DNA of 64,000 nucleotides, taken from NCBI GenBank assembly GCA_015063125.1, contig SUTB01000001.1, forward strand, positions 372,001 to 436,000. The letters are read 5' to 3'. The notes beneath the pieces are model-generated. The model was not told the origin of the DNA and did not search any database. It worked only from the letters and a program-made list of their open reading frames with translations. A program made the translations under genes and the position numbers. Source of the DNA: Thermoplasmata archaeon (GTDB lineage: Archaea > Thermoplasmatota > Thermoplasmata > Methanomassiliicoccales > Methanomethylophilaceae). How positions within the stretch are numbered: the stretch's first letter is position 1; every line of letters begins with the position of its first letter. Positions 2,109-41,138 of the stretch are shown here, one piece after another.

Positions 2109-2337
2109 GTTATCACTATATCGAGACGGATTGGCTCTATCTGAATGTAATGGTCTTCAGCATTAAATAGAAAGTGCCGCAGTCCGAATGCCGTGATAAA
2201 GGTTGAAATCACTGCCGAGATGGAACAATATCAAGATAAGATTCTTTCAGTGACGTCTGTCTATCAAACAAGTTTCATTATCTGACACCCCACCCCTTCT
2301 TGGTTTCAACTGGCCAAGATTTCTTTCCCAAAGATTC

Positions 2338-3057
2338 CTAATAAATCAGCCTATCTGCCGCCAACTTGGGCCATATATCAACGATTCTATCATCGAAGGG
2401 GTGTTTAGACATCCATTTCTTGAATTGTTCATCATGACCTTGAGAGGATTTCATGTTCTGTTGCCTAAGATGAAGGATCTCATGATATACGATGTGATTT
2501 AGGATTCTGGGATCCTATTCTTGACAATCCAGATAATCCGATATCCCTACTACCCTCCATTCCCCGTGACATAGGCCTAGAAGTTCATGGTCGTCATAAC
2601 ATGCCCATGTGAACCTGGCATTGCGGATATCCTCATAGGTTATCAAACCTGTGAACAATAATTTCTTCACTTCATTCATCAAATCCTTATAATTCCCAAG
2701 GGGAGTTCCTTTGTATTCAGGATTTCTGGATATAAATGCAGATTGGATTTCTCTCAATGTCTCCTTGGAATCGATATACATAAGAACGGATTCCGGAATG
2801 GATCTTTCTCCGGCGATATATCTGCGCTCTATCTGGAGTACAAGATCCCACAGGGTATTATCAGGAACTAACTCCAGATAATCGCATATGAAAATATCCC
2901 ACCTGCCATCTGATGTTATCTTGAGATCGTAGTAATAGGGTTGATCCATCAGAAATACCCTGTATGAATTACAAAAAGACAGGGTGCGACCTTTGAAACG
3001 GCACGTGATGTCCTTCGCTTTTGTAACAAGATCAATTGATTGATTATCACAAATCAT
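2338..3057 (-). CDS. SprT-like zinc metalloprotease with in-frame TAG at codon 181
   Basis: Read through the TAG at 2515-2517, the frame gives 239 residues. The first 180 are clearly homologous to the protein at 39533-40273 (shared SDYL/CDYL...PDN, GxYxDLN/MN, F/LxxGLI, and VVG/WIS..LD). The catalytic zinc signature lies after the TAG, in the same frame: VYHEILHLRQ with H192, E193 and H196, then GHDEQFKKW and KHP, the usual third-ligand region. The relative is 246 aa, so the read-through length fits the family and the 180-aa product lacks the active site. The frame ends at another TAG (2338-2340). The start ATG overlaps the upstream TGA at 3054-3057 (ATGA coupling). Either UAG is decoded here, as pyrrolysine in Methanomassiliicoccales, or this is a recent nonsense pseudogene. 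Confidence 0.75.
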
Positions 3058-3731: not shown

Positions 3732-4276
3732 AATTCTGTATAAGATAGCACAAATTTATTGTTTTCTTGACTTCGACACTAGCAAATTCAGTCTTTTCTG
3801 ATCATATTTAAGCAGATATGCTCAGGCCTATCGGGTCTGAAGAAGGTCACCAGGAAAGTGAGCATCAAGTGCAGGTTCCTGTTCCTGCAGCTCCTTTGTA
3901 CGTTGTTCAAAGGTTACGCACTGACAGAGTCCTGAGCGCAGCTCAGGACCGATAAGAGTGGCGAAGAGTCCCCATTTTATATGCTACTACTCAGTGGAAA
4001 CTCCCGCCGCCCTCCGGATTTAATTCGCCGTTTATGGTTTTATTCCCGTGCAGACCCGTCATGAAGGGCTGTTGAAAGGCCGTCCTGTGAAAGAACGATG
4101 GGCATCTTCGTATCATTGGTGGGGGACGTTCAGAGTAATCGCGAAACTTTGAATCCACTGTCTCATGTATTTGTTTTTTTCAATCATTATTAAATTTGAA
4201 TTCTTCATTTAGACTTTCATTTAGATTGTTCGTACGGATGAAATGTGGACTTTTTCCATCATTGATAGGTGTTAAT
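3732..4276. other. 545-nt spacer without a convincing gene
   Basis: No frame here looks like a complete gene. It holds a near-perfect inverted repeat at 3929-3949 (stem GTCCTGAGC, loop GCA) that would form a hairpin, the AT-rich divergent promoter zone for the gene at 3731 near 3740-3770, and an AT-rich stretch at 4165-4200 ahead of the MORN gene. A short frame around 3805-3930 (SGLKKVTRKVSIKCRFLF) looks like decayed coding sequence but I cannot assign it. The block lies between accessory genes and may include old transposon debris. Confidence 0.5.
3929..3949. repeat. Inverted repeat / hairpin
   Basis: 9-bp perfect stem GTCCTGAGC with a 3-nt loop, in the spacer between two divergent accessory genes. 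No T-run follows, so a terminator is not shown; it could be a structured RNA element or operator. Confidence 0.5.
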
Positions 4277-5119
4277 ATGGATAATGCGCAATACATAGGA
4301 AATGAATCTAAATGTACGATTTATTGGGGAGATCCCATTACTGTTGATCTTGGTAAGATAACGAAAATCTCGTTCAATAAAGATGAGTACAGTATGTATT
4401 CGGGCAATCGTGTCAATGGCATTTGGAGGGTCCAATATTCTAATAACAGCAGTTATGATGGTGAAATGGTAAACGGAAAGAGAGAGGGCTTTGGCTATCT
4501 TATACACCGTGAAAAAGGTGAATACCATACTAAATATCGCGGTTTGTTCCATGCTGATGATCTCGTGATGGGTGAAACCCTAATAGTCTTCGATGGAGTT
4601 GGATTTTTGAAAGGTGAAGTGGATTCTGGAGCATTTGTCCGGGGGAAATTTGAACATTCAAATGGTGACATTCAGAGTGGTGAATGGAAAAAGGGAATTC
4701 AACACGGACAGTGTTTGTTGAATCTGGCTTCGAAGGACATCTGTTGGAAAGGGCAGTTCATCAATGGTATGCCAAACGGCCCTTGCGTGATGTCTAGGCC
4801 TAGTTCTGACCTTATACAATTCAGAGGCAATTTTTCTGATCCTGGAAATGCTTCTGGAGATCTTTTCGTTTGGGAAAACCACGAATGGGTTTGGGATTGT
4901 TCTGCAGATCTTGTTGATGGCGTAGTGGTTCCGCATAAAAATTCTGCAACAACTATCAGCGATACTAAATCGCCTGGTGTCAGGGAACATTTTGCTCCGG
5001 AACATTTGATGAGCTTTGAGGAGAAGCAATGTCTTGAACAATAGAGAAGATGGTTCGGTCAAGCAGATGCAGATATAGTCTGGCTTCAAAAACACCGCAA
5101 TAACGGGGCGCATCGTTAA
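4277..5119 (+). CDS. MORN-repeat protein with in-frame TAG at codon 256
   Basis: Starts at the ATG of MDNAQYIGNES. The middle carries MORN-type repeats (YDGEMVNGKREGFG at about residue 60, SGEWKKGIQHGQ near 133, WKGQFINGMPNGP near 158), beta-hairpin units known in other proteins as peptide- or lipid-contacting scaffolds. Near the end, PEHLMSFEEKQCLEQ matches PESLMSFEERQRLDY of the membrane protein at 3054-3731. A TAG stands at 5042-5044, but the frame continues for 24 codons to TAA at 5117-5119 and reads RRWFGQADADIVWLQKH, which aligns with HRMYPDKKTADLFYFYDR of the relative. The TAG aligns with a Tyr. The tail after TAG therefore looks like real protein. AT-rich compared with the core. Confidence 0.65.
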
Positions 5120-39532: not shown

Positions 39533-40273
39533 GTGAGACACATGTGGAAAAGGAAGACCGTCAGCGATGGGATAACCATCGCAACGTTCAACAGCAAGAA
39601 CCGTACAGTATCCGACCAGCATCTTACCCAGATTTTCGCCGATGTCGGAAGGAGATACGGATACGACGATGTGGGAGCGGAATTCTCCCCCCTGACAGAT
39701 TTCAAGGTCAGATGGCAGCGCACCTCTGAATGGATCCGTTTCCAGATATCCGACTATCTGGACCGCGCCCCCGACAACATACTCGTGGGTCTCGCGGACG
39801 TATTGTATGCGAAGATCAGAGGAGAGGACAAGGAATACGACGAGGCCTTCATCAGGTACGTAACCGATGAATCCGTCGCCGGACCGAACCAGAAGGACTT
39901 CCTCAGCAGGTCCAGGAACCTGGGGGGATCCTCCGTCGGGGATTACCACGATTTGAACGACTGCGTTAACCGTCTGAGGGACGAAGGATTAATTCCAGAC
40001 GACCTCCAGTGCGAGCTCCGCTGGGATTCCAGCCCCGGAGGCAAGGCCGCAGGATGCTCCGTCCTCCAGAGGGTGGTATGGGTCAGCAGGGCACTGGACC
40101 AGAAAGGCGTTCCCGAGAACGTGCTGGACTATTGCGTGTACAGCATGCTCTGCCATCTGATGGTCGGATTCACCGGACGTCAGGACGAGGCGGAGCACAG
40201 GAGATTGGTGTCCAGATACCCCATGCAGGCCGATGCGGAGGAATGGCTCTACAGGCAGGACCTGTACCTCTGA
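39533..40273 (+). CDS. SprT-like zincin homologue, catalytic motif degenerate
   Basis: 246 residues from GTG 39533 (or ATG 39542). Homologous along its length to the read-through zincin at 2338-3057: ISDYLDRAPDNILVGLADVL, VGDYHDLNDCVNRLRDEGLI, VVWVSRALDQKGVPENVLDY. Where the relative has VYHEILHLRQ this protein has VYSMLCHLMV, so the first His and the Glu of HExxH are lost and it is probably not a protease. First gene of a run that also contains two intact HExxH proteins. Might have become a binding or regulatory protein. Confidence 0.65.
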   Translation: MRHMWKRKTVSDGITIATFNSKNRTVSDQHLTQIFADVGRRYGYDDVGAEFSPLTDFKVRWQRTSEWIRFQISDYLDRAPDNILVGLADVLYAKIRGEDKEYDEAFIRYVTDESVAGPNQKDFLSRSRNLGGSSVGDYHDLNDCVNRLRDEGLIPDDLQCELRWDSSPGGKAAGCSVLQRVVWVSRALDQKGVPENVLDYCVYSMLCHLMVGFTGRQDEAEHRRLVSRYPMQADAEEWLYRQDLYL

Positions 40274-40277
40274 GACC

Positions 40278-41138
40278 ATGTCATCCGTGTTCCGTAGGAG
40301 GGACATCCCCGTCGGAGAAGACGGATACGTGCCCTTCGATTCGATCGTCCAGAGATTTCATCAGGCAGGGGACCTCAGGGATTCCGATTCGACCGAACCG
40401 ATAGTGCTTCCCAACCGCCTCACACCCGAGCAGATCGCTGATTGGTGGGATGATCCATCAATATGCGACGTCGAGGGCGTGGATACGGAGGATTCGGACA
40501 TCTATTCCGTCCCTCTTTCCATCAGGGGAAGGAAGAGGAGGGCGCTGAAGAGGATCGCCGTATTGGCCGACAAGAAGGAGAGCGACCGCATCAAGAAGGT
40601 GCTAGCCGATAGCTTCACGGCAGAGGAGCTGGAGGAGATGGCCGGCGGGGAATCCCTCATGGTATCGACCAAGCCCCATCTGAGGGACTGCACAGGGTTC
40701 TACCTGAGGAAGCAGGAAACCGTTCCTGTTCCGCAGATCGTCCTGGAAGAAGGGACGACGGACGACGGCATCGTGCACGAAGCGGTGCACCATCTCCGTG
40801 TGAAGGAAGGGAGGTCCTCATTCCCTACGGTCAACGGCATCCTCCATCCGTCATATCGCAGCCTGCCCAAACCGGAAAGGTCGGCGATAATCGGAAGGGA
40901 GGAGAAGGAGACCGTGGCGGAGACCATCGCCAGGACCAAGGTCGATCCGATGGAATCCGGATACTACGAGCGCATCCCGGGGATGCCATCCAGATCGGCA
41001 TACCTCCATGACCAGCAGGTCATCAGCGGGTCGAGGGCCCTGAAGGGCAAGGCAGCGATAAAGGCGGTGCAGGACAACTACGACCGCACGTCGATCTCCA
41101 GGGCGATAATCTCTGGAAACAGGAAGGGGAGAAGATGA
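40278..41138 (+). CDS. Minimal zinc metalloprotease-like protein (HExxH)
   Basis: 286 residues, ATG 5 nt after the previous stop. H167-E-A-V-H171 in GIVHEAVHHLRVKEGRSSF is a zincin site; EKETVAETIARTKVD about 50 residues later offers the third ligand. The region around it (KPHLRDCTGFYLRKQ...PQIVLEEG) is shared with the 422-aa protein at 41984, so the two are paralogues. No signal peptide. It may process an element-encoded structural or surface protein. Overlaps the next start by ATGA. Confidence 0.68.
   Translation: MSSVFRRRDIPVGEDGYVPFDSIVQRFHQAGDLRDSDSTEPIVLPNRLTPEQIADWWDDPSICDVEGVDTEDSDIYSVPLSIRGRKRRALKRIAVLADKKESDRIKKVLADSFTAEELEEMAGGESLMVSTKPHLRDCTGFYLRKQETVPVPQIVLEEGTTDDGIVHEAVHHLRVKEGRSSFPTVNGILHPSYRSLPKPERSAIIGREEKETVAETIARTKVDPMESGYYERIPGMPSRSAYLHDQQVISGSRALKGKAAIKAVQDNYDRTSISRAIISGNRKGRR

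Follow-up and report, generated by a model that had tools for sequence, protein, structure and literature searches.

An accessory SprT/YgjP-like zincin gene with two in-frame UAG codons, probably read as pyrrolysine, in a Methanomethylophilaceae archaeon

The present study analyzes a minus-strand gene in a 64,000-nucleotide stretch of contig SUTB01000001.1 (the window; assembly GCA_015063125.1) from a gut-type methanogen of the Methanomethylophilaceae. The open reading frame begins with an ATG at 3057 and runs for 180 codons to a TAG at 2517-2515, beyond which the same frame stays open for 58 codons (182-239) carrying the motifs VYHEILHLRQ and GHDEQFKKW, as a sequence-only reading of this DNA had described. 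The same reading took codon 240 as the end of the read-through product, which did not hold up, as codon 240 is itself TAG, the very codon for which read-through was being proposed, and the first in-frame TAA or TGA is the TAA of codon 260 (2280-2278). Across the resulting 259 codons no frameshift, TAA or TGA was found. The ORF that precedes the zincin (Table 1) is almost unique to the source genome and is a probable co-transcribed partner of it. A C-terminal LMSFEE(R/K)Q stretch is common to this ORF and to a neighboring one on the plus strand (4196-5044).

Table 1. Positions within the window of the zincin gene and associated features.
Feature	Position	Strand	Remarks
Zincin, full frame with TAG as sense	2278..3057	minus	259 codons, SprT/YgjP-like, ending at TAA 2280-2278; from frame and homology
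In-frame TAG, codon 181	2515..2517	minus	Predicted loop directly before the HExxH helix (183-201); AlphaFold model
Second in-frame TAG, codon 240	2338..2340	minus	Followed by 19 more codons
HEILH zinc-binding motif, codons 192-196	2470..2484	minus	H, E, L and H identical in 30/30 other HExxH members
His208 (GHDEQF), likely third zinc ligand	2434..2436	minus	H in 30/30 HExxH members
Upstream ORF, 225 aa	3054..3731	minus	Hydrophobic N-terminal half, possibly membrane; 4-base overlap with zincin start
Degenerate sister of the zincin family	39533..40273	plus	SMLCH in place of HExxH

The zincin has the HExxH motif and downstream His by which SprT/YgjP-like metallopeptidases are recognized (H192, E193, H196 and H208). 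Pfam matches were weak, either to SprT-like (PF10263, 22.3 bits, under the gathering cut-off of 25.6) or to YgjP-like (PF01863), and Foldseek placed the minigluzincins jannalysin and selecase first (PDB 4jix and 4qhg, E of about 0.04, probability 0.90-0.99), with a DNA-protein-crosslink protease entry, 6mdw, at E 0.11. SprT-like and YgjP-like peptidases and minigluzincins share HExxH and the downstream His with the zincin and include its best structural matches, but with a score below the Pfam SprT cut-off and a Foldseek E of only 0.04 it belongs to a separate Methanomethylophilaceae family, one matched in 30 of 31 genomes searched in the genus. The zincin protein found no relative of note in a PDB sequence search and none in a scan of viral contigs, and tblastn gave no phage match. 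In two loci examined the HExxH gene is preceded by what we take to be a gene for a YgiQ-like radical SAM protein. The protein encoded at 39533, with which the zincin had earlier been compared, is indeed kin to it but is not the proper comparator, being a degenerate sister whose zinc site is replaced by SMLCH; suitable comparators are HExxH copies within the genus, such as C4:627007 in the same genome. This sister family occurs genus-wide (39533-40273 and loci L041, L044 and L054-L081), HExxH is absent from the members examined, and this is possibly a family of dead enzymes. The end of the 39533 gene is overlapped by an ORF at 40233-41138 which has a HEAVHH motif of its own and only a weak match to the Pfam PmbA/TldD domain.

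At the local base composition, a run of 58 codons free of TAA and TGA has a chance probability of about 8%, so that little weight can be placed on the open frame by itself and the case rests on homology. A profile was built from HExxH relatives, with the window gene excluded along with its paralogue on C1 and the copy in G001. Codons 182-239 alone matched this profile with E=2.6e-15, and codons 1-180 with E=2.2e-29; the match of the part after the TAG thus reflects real homology as opposed to a chance open frame. The alignment shows no change at the catalytic residue E193 or at the zinc ligands H192, H196 and H208. An alternative explanation could be that this is an accessory gene in early decay, in which UAG is still translated as pyrrolysine, selection is slight, and the TAGs reflect relaxed constraint. 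The gene is divergent over its whole length (about 30% identity to relatives), near-invariant residues are altered (D187N, E216M, R206Q), and it is an accessory copy lying in an AT-rich stretch not found in G005, a genome of the same species. In the genome's other accessory HExxH copy, the C1 paralogue (C1:54161), TAG occurs twice and the frame appears to be shifted, its N-terminal match lying in another frame (a weak match, E=0.007), so that accessory copies in this genome probably do decay. Against decay are the uninterrupted 259-codon frame and the intact state of the HEILHLRQ helix and of each of the three zinc ligands, together with the observation that the part after the TAG has eroded no more than the part before it (BLOSUM ratio 2.0, compared with 1.35-1.8 in most members). 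On balance we consider early decay unlikely, though the strongest of the alternatives.

Comparison across homologues showed that the codon 181 TAG is private to this gene. It was found in no homologue, with V, I, L or M occupying the column in each of the other 30 HExxH members, and conservation of the TAG, for which an alignment of homologues had been proposed as a check, was not seen. TAGs in other members (the C1 paralogue, G008, G001 and G003) occur at different columns, with one shared by G001 and G003. The latter two are distant members (L040 and L041, respectively), and their TAG stands in a column where most relatives carry Q, E, R or A. Among matches to the family in the genus there were seven in-frame TAGs, one TAA and no TGA, a bias (7/8) with P of about 0.003-0.009 if the three stops are equally or nearly equally likely; counted by gene it is 5/6, with P of about 0.02-0.04. 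Such a bias is more in keeping with tolerance of a codon that is translated than with random nonsense mutation. It is also conceivable that the TAG arose by sequencing or assembly error, as this copy of the zincin is present in one assembly only, but errors would also have produced TAA and TGA, and with two TAGs here and two in the paralogue neither is seen; we regard error as very improbable.

The organism has the means to read UAG. In the source genome pylS (E=8.6e-78), pylB (E=2.3e-133), pylD (PylD_N, 2.3e-29), a tRNA-Pyl gene (pylT) with a CTA anticodon, and a pylC candidate adjoining pylB, identified by its ATP-grasp domain and position only, form one cluster beside an mtmB gene. The search for pyl genes that had been suggested therefore bore out a pyrrolysine-decoding organism, and in the genus the PylB model had a match in 31 of 31 genomes searched (27 above the cut-off). 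In-frame TAG was present, as positive controls, in two mtmB genes, two mttB genes and a dimethylamine methyltransferase gene. In the methylamine methyltransferases MtmB, MtbB and MttB pyrrolysine is conserved and catalytic. Their in-frame TAG is read as pyrrolysine, and such genes occur in this genome too, in contrast with the zincin, whose TAG position is private to one gene.

Use of TAG was measured on sampled stretches amounting to 384 kb of the genome, with 283 called ORFs, of which 248 end in TGA, 27 in TAA and only eight in TAG. Six of these eight apparently terminal TAGs actually lie inside five genes, core genes among them: two methyltransferase genes, a cobN-like gene (two TAGs), a thiF-family gene and a Na/Pi-cotransporter-PhoU gene. 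This leaves at most two possible true TAG stops, both on ORFs with weak coding scores. A survey of ORFs with TAG as sense yielded many antisense and 5′-extension artefacts, and only family-matched genes were counted. The cobN-like gene (G000:C4:174115-177843, read as L088:14112-17843) has in-frame TAGs at codons 172 and 421. The two TAGs are also present in its counterpart in the same-species genome (G005:C1:48718-52446, L133), with nine substitutions in 3.7 kb. In-frame TGA in cobN-like matches was checked in six cases, each of which proved to be the gene's true terminal stop. The thiF-family gene (L094:9524-10231) and the Na/Pi-cotransporter-PhoU gene (L095:35-1714) of this genome have one in-frame TAG each. 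Because TAG is rare at ORF ends and occurs inside recognizable genes in a genome with the pyl set, UAG behaves, as far as sequence can tell, as a sense codon in the source genome.

This has a bearing on the suggestion that the gene encodes either a pyrrolysine-containing or a UAG-gated protease. In a gated protease, termination would give an inactive form of 180 residues and the supply of pyrrolysine would set the amount of active enzyme. The TAG does separate the N-terminal part from the zinc site, so that termination at codon 181 would remove all zinc ligands. Against gating are the lack of this TAG in any homologue, sense use of UAG genome-wide (including the cobN-like, thiF-family and phosphate-transporter genes), RNA structure 3′ of codon 181 that was in no way unusual (z = -0.28), and the second TAG close to the C-terminus, where gating would be pointless. 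The gated half of the suggestion was thus not supported, and we think a switch of this kind very unlikely indeed. Partial termination at codon 181, with a short, zinc-free form made beside the full protease and activity set by pyrrolysine supply during growth on methylamines, would be just as unlikely. The other half stood, pyrrolysine at codon 181 being the most likely reading.

Our preferred interpretation, which we hold to be probable, is that the gene encodes an accessory SprT/YgjP-like zincin of about 259 residues, a working or near-working protein with pyrrolysine inserted at UAG. The source organism would insert pyrrolysine at UAG routinely with its tRNA-Pyl, and for that reason the ribosome would be expected to read codon 181 as pyrrolysine, probably codon 240 as well, and to make the whole protein, zinc site included. 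Binding of zinc and peptidase activity would be predicted for this protein. The UAG of codon 181 most likely goes back to a neutral substitution in a loop, which is possible because UAG is almost never a stop here. Weighing against the interpretation are the aliphatic column at codon 181 in relatives and the divergence of the zincin throughout. Pyrrolysine reportedly entered a tRNA-His guanylyltransferase by neutral evolution, a case said to have been studied experimentally by Heinemann and coworkers (Heinemann et al. 2009). Both are instances of in-frame UAG in a non-methyltransferase gene where a need for pyrrolysine is not evident, but that case is experimental while the zincin is known from its sequence.

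Within the same archaeal family, and likewise with pyl genes, Ca. Methanomethylophilus alvus has 1.6% TAG stops and 16 non-methyltransferase genes predicted to contain pyrrolysine (Borrel 2014, PMC4153887), ordinary genes such as those for Cas1, MtxX and DGGGP synthase among others. Common to both organisms are the great rarity of TAG as a stop and the occurrence of single genes with an in-frame TAG whose relatives lack it, whereas the zincin belongs to another gene family, is accessory and not conserved, and has two TAGs. Sense-read UAG in the zincin is most likely a known habit of this group and not a special switch. The zincin family joins the list of ordinary Methanomethylophilaceae genes with in-frame UAG, genes of a kind that annotation under the standard code cuts upstream of the active site. 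The finding suggests that UAG in Methanomethylophilaceae is accumulating in fast-evolving accessory genes.
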